Of a DNA stretch of 64,000 nucleotides, positions 53,618 to 59,962 are shown in pieces; positions within the stretch are counted from its first letter, which is position 1; each line of letters begins with the position of its first letter. The notes below the pieces were generated by a model that was given only the letters and a program-made list of their open reading frames with translations, searched no databases and was not told where the DNA came from. This DNA comes from Hwanghaeella grinnelliae (GTDB taxonomy: Bacteria > Pseudomonadota > Alphaproteobacteria > UBA8366 > Aestuariispiraceae): positions 1,116,001-1,180,000 of the forward strand of contig NZ_SADE01000001.1 in assembly GCF_004005845.1 (NCBI RefSeq), read 5' to 3'. Made by a program: the position numbers and the translations under genes.

Positions 53618-54214
53618 TTATCCCAGAAGGGCGAGGACGACCGATCCAACAAGAAGAATCGCGAAGGTTATATTCGCAATCCGCCCTGCGGTCGGATGCC
53701 GCAACAGGCGCGCAAGCCCGGCGCCGAGGACGAGCCAGGTCGTGTTCACCGCCACGATCACGATCGACAGGACGATCAGTTTCACCGCCGCGTCCCGGAT
53801 CGGCGCGTCGGCAATGACGATGACACTGGTATAGACCGCCCCGATCGCCGCATAGGCTTTGGGATTGGCTATGGCCAGCAGATACCCGCCTGCGAAGGCC
53901 GGGGCGGGACGGTCACCCTTGTCTTCCGACAGGACCGGCGCGGTGGCGATCCGGTAGGCGAGATACAGGATATAGGCCGCCGCCGCGATGGTCAGCACGG
54001 GCATCAGGCCGGGGACAGTGAACAAGACACCGGTGACCCCGGTCGCGATGATCGCCAGGACCGTGGCGGTTCCCAGGCAAATACCGGTGAGATAGGGGAT
54101 GCCGCGGGCGATGCCATAGACCGACCCGGTGGCGGCGGCGCTTAGGGTGGCGGGGCCGGGACTGCCCATCAGGGGCAGGGCGGCAAGCAGCAGGACAAGG
54201 ATGTTTTCGGCCAT
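53618..54214 (-). CDS. LysE/RhtB-family exporter
   Basis: The 198-residue protein has six membrane helices, with the family opening PLMGSPGPATLSAAATGSVYG and ANPKAYAAIGAVY in the middle. LysE/RhtB proteins export amino acids or their analogues. It lies 85 bases downstream of the WYL-type regulator on the same strand, and may be its target. A second LysE gene lies at 59324-59962. Confidence 0.88.
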   Translation of the reverse strand: MAENILVLLLAALPLMGSPGPATLSAAATGSVYGIARGIPYLTGICLGTATVLAIIATGVTGVLFTVPGLMPVLTIAAAAYILYLAYRIATAPVLSEDKGDRPAPAFAGGYLLAIANPKAYAAIGAVYTSVIVIADAPIRDAAVKLIVLSIVIVAVNTTWLVLGAGLARLLRHPTAGRIANITFAILLVGSVVLALLG

Positions 54215-54299: not shown

Positions 54300-54995
54300 T
54301 CACGTTGGCGCTTTTTCGGATTGGCGGGCCGCTTCCCAGTTCAGGCGCAATTGACGGGCGTCCGGTCCGAACCCCTCTTCAAGCACGTCCATGCTTTGTA
54401 TCCGGTCGATCCGGAAGTGACGGAAATCCTTCCGCAAACGGCACCAGGCGGCCAAGACCGCGACTTGCACGTAATACACCAGGGCGACCGGCAGGATTGT
54501 CCGTTCGGTGGCATCCCCGGCCTCGTCCAGATAGGCGATGCGCAGCGCCCGGTTTTCGCGCAGCGCCGTGCGCAGGGCGGCCATATCGATCAGGTCGGGG
54601 GGATCGGCGCCCCAGTCGGAAACATTCAGATGGCTGCCCTCGGCTTCCCCGCGGCGGCTTTCGGGCAGGACTTCGGCGATCTTTGCATTGGCCCGCCGGG
54701 CGGCGGTTTGCAGGCCGACATCGCCGGTGCGCGCCAACAAACTCAGGCCGACGACGATCGCCTCCATTTCCTCGACGTCGAACATCAGCGGCGCGAGATC
54801 ATAGCCCCGGCGCATCAGGTAACCGATACCGGCCGCGCCCTCGATCGGGACGCGCATGCCCTGCAGGGTGGCGATATCGCGGTAGACGGTGCGGATATTG
54901 ACTTCCAACTGCTCGGCAAGCGCGGCGGCGGTCATCGGGGCGCGGGCCTGCCGAAGCAATTGGATGATTTCGAATAAGCGATCGGCGCGCCGCAC
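54300..54995 (-). CDS. WYL-domain (YafY-type) transcriptional regulator
   Basis: The protein has an N-terminal winged helix (RRADRLFEIIQLLRQA...MTAAALAEQLEVNIRTVYRDIATL) and a C-terminal WYL domain with ALRIAYLDEAGDATERTILPVALVYY and AWCRLRKDFRHFRIDRI. The start is placed at the GTG at 54995 because GGGAGG lies five bases before it and family members start at RRADRL; an upstream ATG at 55043 is the alternative. A perfect palindrome lies 59 bases upstream, and divergent pyridoxamine-oxidase-type genes follow. It is probably autoregulated. Confidence 0.88.
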   Translation of the reverse strand: MRRADRLFEIIQLLRQARAPMTAAALAEQLEVNIRTVYRDIATLQGMRVPIEGAAGIGYLMRRGYDLAPLMFDVEEMEAIVVGLSLLARTGDVGLQTAARRANAKIAEVLPESRRGEAEGSHLNVSDWGADPPDLIDMAALRTALRENRALRIAYLDEAGDATERTILPVALVYYVQVAVLAAWCRLRKDFRHFRIDRIQSMDVLEEGFGPDARQLRLNWEAARQSEKAPT

Positions 54996-55053
54996 CCGGA
55001 CCTCCCTCTGTTCGTGCCAGGCCGTTGCTGACAGAAAACGCATAACACATCGC

Positions 55054-55075
55054 TACTGACAATAGGGTGTCAGTA
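55054..55075. promoter_or_regulatory. operator-like palindrome between the WYL regulator and PPOX gene
   Basis: TACTGACA-N6-TGTCAGTA is a perfect 8-base inverted repeat. A further CTGACAG half-site is at 55027-55033. The same CTGACA-N6-TGTCAG core recurs at 59242-59259. It is likely the binding site of the adjacent WYL regulator. Confidence 0.7.
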
Positions 55076-55117
55076 TCGGGCGATTATATCCCCCTCCACA
55101 CCAGCATGGAGGACATG

Positions 55118-55690
55118 ATGCCCAGCAGCGCCGACCGCCTTTCCGACGGACAAATTGCCCATATTCGTTCGCAACCGTTGTTTTTCGTCGCGACCGCCGC
55201 GCCGACCGGCAGGGTCAACCTGTCGCCGAAGGGGATGGATACGCTGCGCGTGTTGACGCCGAACCGGATCGTCTGGCTAAGCCTTTCGGGAAGCGGCAAC
55301 GAAACCGCGGCGCATTTGCTGGAAGACAGCCGGATGACGCTGATGTTCTGCGCCTTTGAAGGCAAGGCAGGCATCCTTCGCGCCTACGGCACCGCGCGGG
55401 CTGTCTATCCGGGTGGTCGGGATTGGCCGAACTTGTCCGGCCTATTTCCGGACATGGCGGGAACACGGCAGATCTTCGATCTCACCGTCGATCTCGTTCA
55501 GACCTCCTGTGGTACCGGGGTTCCCGTCATGCGGTTCGAGCGTCAGCGCGGTCCCGATGAACTTCTGCCGTTTTACGATGCGTTGGGGGCCGACGGTGTG
55601 CGGGCCTATTGGGGGCGGAAAAACGCGGTCAGCCTGGATGGACGTCCCACCGGGATTTCCACCAACCTCCGTTCGGATGAAAGGATATGA
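55118..55690 (+). CDS. pyridoxamine 5'-phosphate oxidase-family FMN protein
   Basis: The 190-residue protein has a split-barrel FMN-binding fold: FFVATAAPTGRVNLSPKGMDTL, then IVWLSLSGSGNETAAHL and FCAFEGKAGILRAYGTA. Such proteins are FMN or haem/F420 split-barrel oxidoreductases, and true PdxH activity is unlikely. The start at 55118 follows GGAGG; ATGs just upstream are possible. It overlaps the next gene by four bases (ATGA). Confidence 0.85.
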   Translation: MPSSADRLSDGQIAHIRSQPLFFVATAAPTGRVNLSPKGMDTLRVLTPNRIVWLSLSGSGNETAAHLLEDSRMTLMFCAFEGKAGILRAYGTARAVYPGGRDWPNLSGLFPDMAGTRQIFDLTVDLVQTSCGTGVPVMRFERQRGPDELLPFYDALGADGVRAYWGRKNAVSLDGRPTGISTNLRSDERI

Positions 55691-56589
55691 GCGCCGGCGC
55701 GGGCGCTGTCGAAGCCAGGTTCAAAGGCGCCTTTTTGGTCGTCGCCTCGGCGGTGTTGTTCGCATCCGCGGGGGTGTTCACAAAACTAATCCCGTCGGAT
55801 GCCTGGACCATCCTGTTCTGGCGCGGCCTTATCGCAGCCGTGTTCCTGGGGGCACTGATGGCGATGCGCGGCAGTTTGCGCGATCAAATCCTACGCATGG
55901 GGTGGAGCGGCTTCGCCGCGGCCTGCGTCTCCAGCCTGGGCAGCGTGGCCTTCATCCCGGCTTTCAAGGAAACGACGGTGGCGAATGTCACATTGATCTA
56001 CACGTCCGCACCTTTCCTGGCGGCCTTCGTCGCGTGGATTTGGATGCGGGAAAAGCCGTCCCGACGGTGTATGGCTGCTGCCGGGGCGGCCCTGGTCGGT
56101 GTGGCGGTGATTTTTGGGGCGCCGGCGCCCGGCGTCTCCGTGACCGGCGATTTGTTCGCCTTGTGGATGACGCTCTGCATGTCGGTGGCGATGGTGATTT
56201 ACCGGCGGTACCCGGCAACGCCGGCGGTCGGGCCGATGGTGCTGAGCAGTCTGATGCTGCTGCCGGTCGCGGTCTTGTTTTCCGACCCATTCGAGGTTCC
56301 GTTGGGTGAGGTCCCGATGCTGACGGCATTCGGCCTGTGTTTCGCGCTGGCCTCTGTGGCATTGCTGTCCGGCGCCAAACTGCTGCCGTCTTCGGAAACC
56401 GCTTTGCTTAGCATCATGGAAACACCCTTGGCGCCGCTTCTGGCCTGGTTGCTTCTGGCCGAAACACCGTCGCTGCGGTGTTTGGCGGGCGGCGTTCTGA
56501 TCATTGCCGCGTTGATCTGGTATTTGGGGAGAAGACCGGACAGAGGGACCGGGAGGGTTGCCGCTGGGGCTGATAATCATACAGTCTAA
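55687..56589 (+). CDS. EamA-family (DMT) transporter
   Basis: The 300-residue protein has ten helices in two EamA repeats. The first begins FLVVASAVLFASAGVFTKLI and the second contains ALSIMETPLAPLLAWLLL-type end segments. It is translationally coupled to the PPOX gene, so both probably answer to the WYL regulator. Substrate unknown. It is distinct from the DMT gene at 16523. Confidence 0.85.
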   Translation: MSAGAGAVEARFKGAFLVVASAVLFASAGVFTKLIPSDAWTILFWRGLIAAVFLGALMAMRGSLRDQILRMGWSGFAAACVSSLGSVAFIPAFKETTVANVTLIYTSAPFLAAFVAWIWMREKPSRRCMAAAGAALVGVAVIFGAPAPGVSVTGDLFALWMTLCMSVAMVIYRRYPATPAVGPMVLSSLMLLPVAVLFSDPFEVPLGEVPMLTAFGLCFALASVALLSGAKLLPSSETALLSIMETPLAPLLAWLLLAETPSLRCLAGGVLIIAALIWYLGRRPDRGTGRVAAGADNHTV

Positions 56590-56692
56590 TATAAATATCA
56601 TATGATTTTATGATGTTGATGTGTGATGGGATGCTATCTTTAGAGCGCTCTCACCGACCGTCTTTTTCGCCGCAATTCAACGCAAAGGCCTT

Positions 56693-58450
56693 ATGACCGG
56701 AACCGCCCCAACGATATCCTCGCGCCTCGGGGCATTCATCGTCGCATCCATGGTGTTCGTCGCCTTGTCCGGCGCCACGCATTACATAGTGACGGCGGAA
56801 AGTGACCGCCTTGAGCAAATTGAACGCTCGAAGGTTCAGCAGCGCCTTTCGACCTTGGTTTCGCGCATCGAAGCGGAGCTGAATGCCAATGTCTTTCTGG
56901 CCAATGGGCTTGTTGCCTATATTTCGGCCCTTGGGGACAATTATGGGAGCCGGATGCAAGCCGCCCTGAAAGCGGTCCACGATTTTGGCAGACATATCAA
57001 GAATATAGGCGCCGCGCCCGGCAACCGGCTCAGCTACATCTATCCGTTGGAAGGCAACGAGGCAGCGTTGGGCCTTTACTATCCCGATCTACCGCGACAA
57101 TGGCCCGCCGTTCTGGATGCGATTGCGAAGAGAGAAACCGTCCTGGCCGGCCCTGTGACTTTGCTGCAGGGCGGCGAGGCCTTTATCAGCCGGACCCCCG
57201 TTTTTTGGGAGGACGGAACGTATTGGGGCATTCTCAGCCTGGTTCTGGATAAGGAAAGTCTGTTCACCGCGGTCGGCTTGTCAGCGGAGGTCGACGGCAT
57301 CCGCTATGCCGTGCGCGGCAAGGACGCGCTGGGCGCCGAGGGCGACGTTTTCCATGGCGATTCTGCGCTTTTCGGAATGGATTCCGTTCAGGTTCGTTTA
57401 AGCGTTCCGGGCGGAGAGTGGGTGGCCGCGGCCATTCCGGAGGGGGGATGGCAATATGGGCAGGATTACCTTGTCCTGGCCGAAGCGGTCGGGATTTTAT
57501 CCGCCCTTATGATCGCGATCGGTGTTTTCAGCTATCAACGGATCCGGACTCAGACCTTTGAAAGCGAGAAACGCCTGCGCGCCTTCCAGGAAACGACGCG
57601 TGAAGGGGTGATTGTCGTCGACCAAAACGGCGTGATCGAGGAGTTCAATGCCGCTGCCGAAAATTTGTTCGGCTATACGTCGGAGGAGATCGCCGGCACG
57701 CGGGCGGACCGATTGCTGCCAGATTTGGACAAGGTGCGGGACAGCTTTCAAGCCGGCGAAGGCGAGAGCAAGAGTTTACAAGTGGTGCCGGGCGTACATC
57801 GATTAAAGGGGCAGCGGCGCGACGGCAGTTCCGTTCCGACAGAAGTTGCCATTGGCTTGGCTGAGATCGGAAACCGACGCTTCTATGTCGTCTTGGTCCG
57901 CGACATTACCTTACGAGAGGCGCATGAAAACAAGCTCGTCGAACTTGCGACCACCGATGGCCTGACCCATGTGCTGAACAGAAGGGCTTTTCTTGAAGCC
58001 GCGGAGGATGGCTTCAAGCTGATGCGCCGGTATGGGCGGCCGTTGAGCTTGATGATGATCGATGCGGATCACTTCAAACTCATCAATGACAATTTCGGCC
58101 ATCACACCGGCGACGACGTTCTTGTCCGTTTGGCGGAAATTTGCCGGGAAAGTTTGCGGGTCACCGACAAGCTCGCCCGTTTCGGCGGGGAGGAATTCAT
58201 CGCGTTGCTGCCCGAAACCGGGGTGACGCAGGCCGCTGAGGTGGCGGCCCGTCTGCAGGATAAAGCCCGGGCGTGCGACGTTGCCGCTGATAAGGACGGG
58301 ACCGTCCGTTTCACCGTCAGTATCGGCATAGCCGGAGCCGCCGGGTCGGACGAGACCATCGACGACGTGATTAAACGCGCCGATGCCGCGCTCTACGACG
58401 CCAAGGAACAAGGCCGCGATAGAACGGTCGTTGCATCGCCACCCGCCTGA
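56693..58450 (+). CDS. CHASE-PAS-GGDEF diguanylate cyclase
   Basis: The 585-residue protein has an N-terminal membrane helix (about 12-32), a periplasmic CHASE-type sensor (about 60-235, with LSYIYPLEGNEAALGLYY), a second helix (about 260-285), a PAS domain (about 300-420, GVIVVDQNGVIEEFNAAAENLFGY), and a GGDEF domain. The active site is GGEEF (498-502) and an I-site RVTD (489-492) lies five residues before it, so product inhibition is likely. It makes c-di-GMP, which the PilZ protein at 7604-7963 could bind. Confidence 0.93.
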   Translation: MTGTAPTISSRLGAFIVASMVFVALSGATHYIVTAESDRLEQIERSKVQQRLSTLVSRIEAELNANVFLANGLVAYISALGDNYGSRMQAALKAVHDFGRHIKNIGAAPGNRLSYIYPLEGNEAALGLYYPDLPRQWPAVLDAIAKRETVLAGPVTLLQGGEAFISRTPVFWEDGTYWGILSLVLDKESLFTAVGLSAEVDGIRYAVRGKDALGAEGDVFHGDSALFGMDSVQVRLSVPGGEWVAAAIPEGGWQYGQDYLVLAEAVGILSALMIAIGVFSYQRIRTQTFESEKRLRAFQETTREGVIVVDQNGVIEEFNAAAENLFGYTSEEIAGTRADRLLPDLDKVRDSFQAGEGESKSLQVVPGVHRLKGQRRDGSSVPTEVAIGLAEIGNRRFYVVLVRDITLREAHENKLVELATTDGLTHVLNRRAFLEAAEDGFKLMRRYGRPLSLMMIDADHFKLINDNFGHHTGDDVLVRLAEICRESLRVTDKLARFGGEEFIALLPETGVTQAAEVAARLQDKARACDVAADKDGTVRFTVSIGIAGAAGSDETIDDVIKRADAALYDAKEQGRDRTVVASPPA

Positions 58451-58465
58451 CCCAATCTGTATCGG

Positions 58466-58792
58466 ATGATGTTGGAAAAGCGAGACAGAACGCAACTGAA
58501 TGAAGCCAAGGCGCGGCGCGCCGGGCTGATCGCGGTCGTTCTGTTCTTTGCGGTGTGCGTGTATGCCGGCCAGATCCCCGCATCCGCCGAAACCCCGCGC
58601 GAAAAGAAGCAGGCCGAGCCGCAAGGCAGTCCGTCCCGTCCCGCGTTTCAACCGCGGTCATCGGGGACCAGCCAGCAACAGGAACGTCAGGACACTGCCC
58701 GCCCGGCGCCGGTCCGGAAGAAGGCAAAGCCGGGGGAAAGCCAGCAGGACGCCCGCAAACGCCGAAACAAGGAACGGGCCTTGGGGCAATAG
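58466..58792 (+). CDS. small basic membrane-anchored protein of unknown function
   Basis: The 108-residue protein has one membrane helix or signal anchor (about 20-40) and a low-complexity basic, Gln/Pro-rich tail (RKKAKPGESQQDARKRRNKERA). It starts 15 bases after the diguanylate cyclase on the same strand. No family is recognised. It could be a spurious frame, as its content is low complexity. Confidence 0.45.
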   Translation: MMLEKRDRTQLNEAKARRAGLIAVVLFFAVCVYAGQIPASAETPREKKQAEPQGSPSRPAFQPRSSGTSQQQERQDTARPAPVRKKAKPGESQQDARKRRNKERALGQ

Positions 58793-58818
58793 CCGATCGA
58801 TTCAGACAAGGGGCGCTG

Positions 58819-59112
58819 TTACGCGATCTCCCCCCGAACGATCAGCAAGTCTCGCTTTGCGGCCTTGTTGGCGAAGGTCTTGGCCGCCTGATAATCCGGG
58901 TCTTCATAACAGGCGACCGCGTCTTCATAGGTGGGGAACTCGACGATGATGACCCGTGCGGTGTCTCGGGCCTCCTTCAAGATCGGCGGCGTTTCGGTGG
59001 GGTTGATCTTCACCCCGTATTTTTCGGCGATGGGCGCCCATAGACGGTTGTATTCCGCATGGGCTGCCTGATCAGTGACTTCCGTGCCGAGAACAATCCA
59101 GTAGCCTTTCAT
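58819..59112 (-). CDS. DUF1330 family protein
   Basis: The 97-residue protein has the DUF1330 fold: the WIVLGTEVTDQAAHAEYNRLW opening, YGVKINPTE, and VIIVEFPTYEDAVACYEDPDYQAAKTF. These small ferredoxin-like dimeric proteins often occur alone. A GAAGGGG ribosome binding site precedes the ATG. A CTGACA palindrome lies between it and the divergent LysE gene. Confidence 0.88.
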   Translation of the reverse strand: MKGYWIVLGTEVTDQAAHAEYNRLWAPIAEKYGVKINPTETPPILKEARDTARVIIVEFPTYEDAVACYEDPDYQAAKTFANKAAKRDLLIVRGEIA

Positions 59113-59241
59113 CGCAAATCCCCTTCTTGCGGCCCCTCGTGCCGTCTTCGTGCCACCCGTCGTGACTGTCTGCTCAATCGCTACCTAGCATCATGGCGAC
59201 GGGGACGACAGAGATTTGGTGACGGGCGCGCGCCTTCCTTC

Positions 59242-59259
59242 CTGACAGTATGCTGTCAG
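59242..59259. promoter_or_regulatory. second CTGACA-N6-TGTCAG operator-like palindrome
   Basis: CTGACAG-TATG-CTGTCAG is a perfect 7-base inverted repeat. It has the same core and spacing as the site at 55054-55075. It lies between the divergent DUF1330 and LysE genes, 64 bases before the LysE start. It may extend the WYL regulator's targets. Confidence 0.65.
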
Positions 59260-59323
59260 CATGTACCGGGTAATTATTCCCAGGTTTGAATTGATCGAAA
59301 ACCCAGGAAGGATACGACCCGAC

Positions 59324-59962
59324 ATGGACGCGTGGACACTTTACCTACCCGGTATTCTCTTGGCGTTGGGGGCTTGTGGGCTGGGCCTGATGAGCCCGGG
59401 GCCAAACGTCATGGCGGTGATCGGAACCGCCATGTCTTCCGGGCGGTCGCAGGGAATGGCGCTTGCGGCCGGTGTTTCCACCGGTTCCGCCCTGTGGGCC
59501 TCGGCCACGGCGGCCGGCCTTTCCTCGCTGCTGGCGGCCTATGCCGGCGCGCTGACCATCATCAAGATCATCGGCGGTGTCTATTTGCTCTGGCTCGCGT
59601 TCAAATCCTTCCGTTCGGCAGCAAGCCCCGGCGATCTTGAGGGGCGCGTTCAGACCAGCGGGCACGGACTGTCCCGGCTTTTCCTGCGCGGTTTGACGGT
59701 CCAGATGAGCAACCCGAAGGCGGCGTTGACCTGGATTGCCATCATGTCCCTCGGTCTTGCGCCAAATGCGCCGATCTGGGTCGTGGCCGTGATCGTGATC
59801 GGTGCCGCCTCAATGTCGCTCGCCGCCCACAGTCTGTATGCGCTGGCCTTTTCAACCGGCGTGATGGTCCGGCTCTATAGCAAGGCGCGGCGCTGGATTC
59901 AGGGCGCTCTGGGGCTGTTCTTCACCTATGCGGGGATCAGGATGCTGGCCGCGCGGCTTTAG
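59324..59962 (+). CDS. LysE/RhtB-family exporter
   Basis: The 212-residue protein has six helices, with GLGLMSPGPNVMAVIGTAMSSGRSQG and QMSNPKAALTWIAIM, the family's two fingerprints. Exports amino acids or analogues. The start at 59324 follows AGGAAGGA at somewhat long spacing; an extended start at 59261 abuts the palindrome. Second LysE in the window. Confidence 0.88.
   Translation: MDAWTLYLPGILLALGACGLGLMSPGPNVMAVIGTAMSSGRSQGMALAAGVSTGSALWASATAAGLSSLLAAYAGALTIIKIIGGVYLLWLAFKSFRSAASPGDLEGRVQTSGHGLSRLFLRGLTVQMSNPKAALTWIAIMSLGLAPNAPIWVVAVIVIGAASMSLAAHSLYALAFSTGVMVRLYSKARRWIQGALGLFFTYAGIRMLAARL

Follow-up and report, generated by a model that had tools for sequence, protein, structure and literature searches.

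Gene organization of the WYL locus

The window (the whole 64-kb stretch of DNA analysed here) contains a gene for a 231-residue HTH_11-WYL regulator (positions 54300–54995, minus strand; Pfam HTH_11, 2.6e-16; WYL, 1.7e-17), the start of which we place at GTG 54995, rather than at ATG 55043, on the basis of an alignment of 28 homologues. A LysE gene (LysE-1; 53618–54214, minus strand; Pfam LysE, 4.2e-13) lies on the same strand 85 bases downstream and is possibly co-transcribed with it. Divergent from the WYL gene is the gene for a PNPOx-type flavoprotein (55115–55690, plus strand; Pfam PNPOx_N, 3.1e-09), a predicted target with a start, as read from its upstream sequence, that is likely to be 55115 or 55118. 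Its open reading frame (ORF) shares a 4-base overlap with that of an EamA transporter (55687–56589, plus strand; Pfam EamA, 3.3e-22), and the two genes are predicted to form one operon. The second predicted target is a further LysE exporter gene (LysE-2; 59324–59962, plus strand; Pfam LysE, 2e-32; start 59324 likewise read from the upstream sequence), next to a DUF1330 gene on the minus strand. Between the two predicted target units lies a gene for a CHASE-PAS-GGDEF diguanylate cyclase (56693–58450), which lacks an exact operator. In a scan for defence systems, PADLOC models matched the WYL protein and none of seven neighbours.

The WYL protein has an N-terminal helix–turn–helix (HTH) domain followed by a WYL domain, both above the Pfam cut-off and both present in its structure model (mean pLDDT 87.9). 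No WCX domain follows: in the 247-residue ORF, the WYL match extends to residue 219, and after the domain the model shows one helix, spanning residues 212–228 of the 231-residue form. These features place the protein in class B of the WYL factors (HTH-WYL without WCX), which an excerpt of PMC6789036 describes as mostly proteobacterial. Four arginine residues (R188, R192, R195 and R198) are invariant in the 28 homologues. By fold, the model most closely matches PafBC (E = 2.7e-11) and DriD (E = 6.0e-11), with a TM-score of about 0.5 because the domains are set differently, and the profile matches likewise rank these two activators best.

Two probable palindromic operators

Two copies of the palindrome CTGACA-N6-TGTCAG lie 4.2 kb apart. 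The first (CTGACAATAGGGTGTCAG) occupies positions 55056–55073, or 55054–55075 with its 8-bp arms TACTGACA and TGTCAGTA, and the second (CTGACAGTATGCTGTCAG) occupies positions 59242–59259. A sequence-only reading of this DNA had described the same palindrome at two promoters, and both copies are where it placed them, with the same core and spacing. On the extended 24-mer consensus derived below, operator 1 spans positions 55053–55076 between the divergent WYL and PNPOx genes (exact core, one mismatch to the 24-mer), and operator 2 spans positions 59239–59262 upstream of LysE-2, with the DUF1330 gene on its other side (exact core, two mismatches); neither operator is assigned to a strand. The alternative starts that would lengthen the adjoining ORFs (ATG 55043, GTG 55067 and ATG 59261) fall inside an operator or a predicted core promoter.

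The genome-wide scan for CTGACA-N6-TGTCAG that the same reading had called for found two exact copies in the 5.32-Mb genome, sites 1 and 2, versus none of the backwards pattern; summed over 59 genomes, the counts are 62 and 3. In the window, three matches have at most two mismatches (the two exact copies and one with two mismatches), against a mean of 1.35 in shuffled sequences. Five places in this genome are one mismatch from the core. At two mismatches, the genome-wide count (111) is below that of the backwards control (146), and there is thus no sign of a wider, weak regulon. The extended 24-mer with up to three mismatches matches seven places in the whole genome versus 15 in the control, and with fewer than three mismatches it matches sites 1 and 2 alone. 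As the relaxed genome searches never exceed their controls, the regulon in this genome probably consists of just the two operators 4.2 kb apart.

The earlier reading had also pointed to a half-site beside site 1. A CTGACA is indeed present at positions 55028–55033, but a functional role for it is unsupported: CTGACA or TGTCAG occurs 20 times in the 64-kb window, and we estimate that, by chance, a few per cent of sites would have a half-site no more than about 50 bp away, so that this one is compatible with chance.

Phasing of the sites to a predicted −10 element

When both flanks of 115 distinct sites were pooled, the half-site extended to TGTCAG-n-A-G (A, 0.88; G, 0.75) and a second element emerged further out, with T at +12 (0.48), A at +13 (0.55) and T at +17 (0.41), giving the layout TGTCAG-N11-TAnnnT, in which the distal part corresponds to a −10 element. 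The dinucleotide TA is found at +12 in 89 of the 230 flanks, as against at most 15 at any other offset from +2 to +40, and 38 at +1. The signal is directional. Among the 70 site-bearing loci of a 79-locus set centred on WYL homologues (described below), 46 have TA at +12 in the flank that points away from the WYL gene (the next most frequent offset, +14, has 19), and just 14 have it in the flank that faces the WYL gene, with 15 at +11. Under an automatic rule, TA at +12 is present in 67/156 ORF-facing flanks versus 5/42 flanks without an ORF. A hand-labelled count (69 of 112 target-facing flanks, as against 5 of 66 others) is inflated, because the side of ten proteins was chosen mostly by their −10 element, and its families were assigned from Pfam matches of representatives and blast clusters rather than from Pfam matches of each gene.

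Some operators have an N5 spacer (L014/L100 in genome G022, L161, L223 and L156), and of the seven N5-spaced sites, six carry TA at +12 in one of their flanks. In G022, one locus has three sites, all of this kind, suggesting that regulator and spacing change together.

A 17-bp spacer would put a −35 hexamer exactly on the central N6 of the operator. This hexamer has five or six mismatches to TTGACA in 92 of the 115 sites and never fewer than three; among the flanking hexamers, 65 of 230 have five or six mismatches.

In the window, TA is present at +12 at all three predicted promoters, including both directions of site 1. The predicted −10 element of the PNPOx–EamA promoter is TATATC (55085–55090, plus strand), 11 bases after operator 1, and that of the WYL promoter is TATGCG (55039–55044, minus strand), on the opposite side of operator 1 and again at a distance of 11 bases. 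The predicted −10 element of the LysE-2 promoter is TAATTA (59271–59276, plus strand), 11 bases after operator 2. Both TATGCG, which fits the consensus in its TA part only, and TAATTA are imperfect. The DUF1330 gene was considered as a further target; its side of site 2 has CGCGCC in place of a phased −10 element, and it is probably not one.

From the phased −10 element, the poor −35 region, the promoter layouts of DriD and PafBC, and the fold matches, we infer that the WYL protein would activate transcription in place of a −35 contact. The same protein could instead bind the same sites as a repressor, in the manner of BrxR and CapW, blocking the −35 region until a ligand releases it. BrxR (a repressor according to an excerpt of PMC10693628) and CapW are WYL proteins among the fold matches, binding over the −35 region could equally keep the polymerase out, and autoregulation is common for repressors. 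However, a repressed promoter needs a −35 element of its own, which is hard to reconcile with the divergence of the central N6 from TTGACA; moreover, the fixed distance to the −10 element fits polymerase contact, and it is the activators PafBC and DriD that the protein matches best by fold and by profile. We therefore consider repression unlikely and favour activation, a point on which the sequence-only reading was silent.

The adjacent WYL protein as the probable regulator

Comparative evidence makes the adjacent HTH_11-WYL protein the very probable regulator at both sites. In a set of 59 genomes, its own included, the motif is present in 27 of the 29 with a WYL homologue (E ≤1e-10) and in none of the 30 without. 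In a class-wide sample of 385 genomes, the motif is found in 66/95 genomes with a homologue versus 21/290 without, and the backwards motif in 5/95 versus 9/290. These co-occurrence counts were computed on hand-compiled genome lists and ignore phylogeny and genome size. Furthermore, within 700 bp upstream of the WYL gene, an exact copy is present at 37 of 52 WYL-centred loci, and a copy with at most one mismatch at 44, versus none for a control in which each half-site is written backwards; the misses include two loci, L028 and L030, with hardly any upstream DNA. In a second set of homologues, which overlaps the first in part and comprises 79 of 80 loci (L198, with too little upstream DNA, was left out), the corresponding figures are 45 and 70, and again none for the control. 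An exact upstream site is thus absent at 15/52 and 34/79 homologues.

In six of the 21 class genomes that have the motif without a WYL match, we inspected one site each. None of the six has TA at +12, and four lack the extended half-site on both sides; without a phased −10 element, the motif in these six genomes is likely to be there by chance. Two of 64 sites examined lie inside a called gene (L076 and L094), and neither has a phased −10 element.

A different regulator, for example the distant WYL paralogue G000:C2:1169580, might bind the sites, with the neighbouring WYL gene as one of its targets. The genome does encode this second WYL protein, which is 28% identical, and longer WYL proteins adjoin the motif in G223, G082 and G394 (loci L120, L188 and L186, respectively), but the presence of the motif tracks homologues of the protein encoded at 54300–54995, and the sites repeatedly adjoin the genes of those homologues, which makes a different regulator improbable. 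The operators at these three loci lie beside ORFs of 343–362 residues, and the motif is thus not confined to the short class of WYL proteins. In two other loci, L194 and L228, a WYL gene and its operator occur in records titled Terriglobia and Acidobacteriaceae, reflecting either gene transfer or mis-binned contigs.

The assignment to the adjacent WYL protein also agrees with a same-genus genome (G001), the one such genome examined. G001 has three sites, at its WYL/PNPOx, LysE and PEP-mutase-like genes, and thereby retains both sites of the window; the intergenic sequence outside the palindromes and −10 elements is just loosely alike. Site 2 fits the extended consensus less well (two mismatches) and has an imperfect −10 element, but its being a chance match or a functionless copy is very improbable, given that the backwards control yields three matches in 59 genomes, yet site 2 lies 4.2 kb from site 1, and that the LysE genes of G001 and G022 have an operator with TA at +12. 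The sequence-only reading had proposed one regulator, the WYL protein, for its own gene, the PNPOx–EamA unit and LysE-2. The co-occurrence across genomes, the recurrence of the site upstream of WYL homologues in both locus sets, the retention of both sites in G001, and the TA at +12 in each of the three predicted promoters support this proposal.

Predicted target genes in related genomes

Genes facing the sites were grouped by Pfam matches of representatives and by blast clusters, with ORF starts searched near the sites. Several families encode proteins of alkylation repair (TagI and AlkD-like) or excision repair: TA is present at +12 in four of seven 3-methyladenine glycosylase I (TagI) flanks (the other three lack it), in all four AlkD-like flanks and in both UvrA flanks. 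Other families have it in 11/12 flanks (glutathione transferases), 6/6 (PNPOx, window included), 3/4 (LysE, window included), 3/5 (EamA) and 2/3 (GFA), and two target groups without a family match have it in 7/8 and 3/3. The promoters of the glyoxalase family (TA at +12 in 7/23 flanks, A at +13 in 21/23) and of the WYL gene itself (TA at +12 in 11/25) fit the −10 element less well. Among the 70 site-bearing loci of the 79-locus set, 57 have a divergent ORF of at least 90 residues, and a scan of these 57 genes found GST_N_3 in 20, EamA in 10, Glyoxalase in 6 and PNPOx in 1.

An expanded form of the regulon is found in genome G004, of the same family, which has 11 exact operators (L065–L075). 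They face UvrA, AlkD-like, glutathione transferase (GST), GFA, EamA, PNPOx and LysE genes and two glyoxalase genes, as well as a cupin gene, a gene without a family and the WYL gene; the sites at the LysE and cupin genes lack TA at +12.

Two groups of proteins adjoin operators. One comprises proteins of 145–176 residues that face the operator, mostly encoded divergently from the WYL gene (L077:2203-2694, L083, L088, L091, L093, L095, L136 and L137), and the one member tested has no Pfam or NCBIfam match. The other, behind the operator, comprises proteins of about 100 residues (L079:1751-2053, L138 and L143), of which that of L079 has no Pfam or NCBIfam match.

The PNPOx, EamA and LysE genes of the window thus belong to families that recur in a larger regulon, which looks like a defence against alkylating or electrophilic damage; from the target families in relatives, a response to genotoxic or electrophile stress is the best reading of the system. 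Neither TagI gene of the present genome has a site near its start, and the second of them has one two-mismatch match, located within another ORF about 1.2 kb upstream. This genome apparently holds a pared-down response, made up of a flavoprotein and exporters. With its two exact sites, this genome agrees with the sequence-only reading, which had described a small regulon of export and flavoprotein genes.

Proposed mechanism and significance

Taken together, the palindromes are probably operators of the adjacent HTH-WYL protein, which would bind each of them as a dimer and act as a transcriptional activator. The bound operator would cover the −35 region, with its central N6 17 bp upstream of the −10 element. 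Because the N6 contains no −35 sequence, RNA polymerase would depend on the bound regulator, as is reported for DriD and PafBC. The WYL domain would sense the signal, which, by analogy, may be single-stranded or damaged nucleic acid; both this inducer and the physiological role proposed here are ones that we infer. On sensing its signal, the protein would switch on the divergent PNPOx–EamA operon, the WYL gene (perhaps together with LysE-1) and LysE-2.

On a broader scale, we are evenly divided on whether a response to damage or electrophiles, run by short HTH-WYL activators of class B, is widespread in Alphaproteobacteria. Such a response would use TGTCAG-N11-TAnnnT promoters, in which the CTGACA-N6-TGTCAG operator replaces the −35 element, and would control TagI, AlkD-like, UvrA, glutathione transferase, glyoxalase, PNPOx and exporter genes; the window would hold a pared-down form for a flavoprotein and exporters.

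That WYL proteins can act as activators of damage responses is already known. The apparent novelty lies in a class B form made of a single gene, with an operator that is palindromic and phased to the −10 element and with a regulon of detoxification and repair genes, in Alphaproteobacteria. Among the matches listed in a search of the open-licence literature, we found no published report on the motif or on this WYL group, and the excerpts of the WYL literature examined describe no member of class B for which both operator and regulon are known. Two apparent matches were set aside: the excerpt of PMC4344238 lists TGTC...GACA sites at photosynthesis genes, and Cada2 of Caulobacter, in the excerpt of PMC10957082, is a different, non-WYL regulator with a different motif. 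We found nothing on the motif in PMC11804915. WYL regulators are very common. With a motif from which target and direction can be predicted on sequence alone, such regulons can be read across many genomes.

Comparison with known WYL systems

The published systems are compared here as described in excerpts of the cited papers. BrxR and CapW resemble the present protein in being WYL proteins with palindromic operators, but they are repressors beside phage-defence operons, whereas none of the seven scanned neighbours here is a defence gene, and they are weaker fold matches.

SiwR of Mycobacterium smegmatis is a hydrogen peroxide-induced WYL activator that adjoins its targets (PMC10693628). Its 19-bp palindrome lies between the −35 and −10 elements, and in some Actinobacteria a glyoxalase-like gene adjoins siwR; against these similarities, SiwR has a WCX domain and DinB-type targets (PMC10693628).

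DriD, a WYL activator of Caulobacter crescentus, controls a damage response that is independent of SOS (PMC12340889, a preprint). Its site is centred on a poor −35 element at a constant distance from the −10 element, with sigma-4 between the two DNA-binding domains (PMC12340889). The two proteins share a winged HTH domain with a WYL domain, a pseudo-palindromic site with GAC/GTC half-sites, and the fold, and our computed promoters likewise have the operator on the −35 region, a fixed distance to the −10 element and a poor −35 element. In contrast, the DriD site is ATACGAC-N7-GTCGTAT, whereas that described here is CTGACA-N6-TGTCAG (GAC-N8-GTC). DriD is also longer, with chains of 331–347 residues, and, like PafBC and SiwR, it has the WCX domain that is absent here. 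Its targets in the excerpt of PMC12340889 are didA, bapE, recJ and dnaG, rather than GST, glyoxalase, TagI or LysE genes.

PafBC of mycobacteria is the best fold match, and is a WYL activator of a damage regulon with a TGTCRG half-site close to the −10 element (PMC6789036 and PMC5656591). Unlike the single WYL gene of the present locus, where there is no PafB–PafC pair, it is a two-protein complex, with WCX domains and a non-palindromic site. Its promoter is tTGTCRgtg-8 nt-TannnT (PMC5656591), and the PafBC/RecA-NDp layout TGTCRG-N10-TAnnnT is shorter by one base than the N11 layout found here, in which TA is at +12 in 89 and at +11 in 12 of the 230 flanks. If the activation proposed here is correct, WYL activators from mycobacteria to Alphaproteobacteria would have in common that they replace the −35 contact at a half-site of the TGTCRG type.
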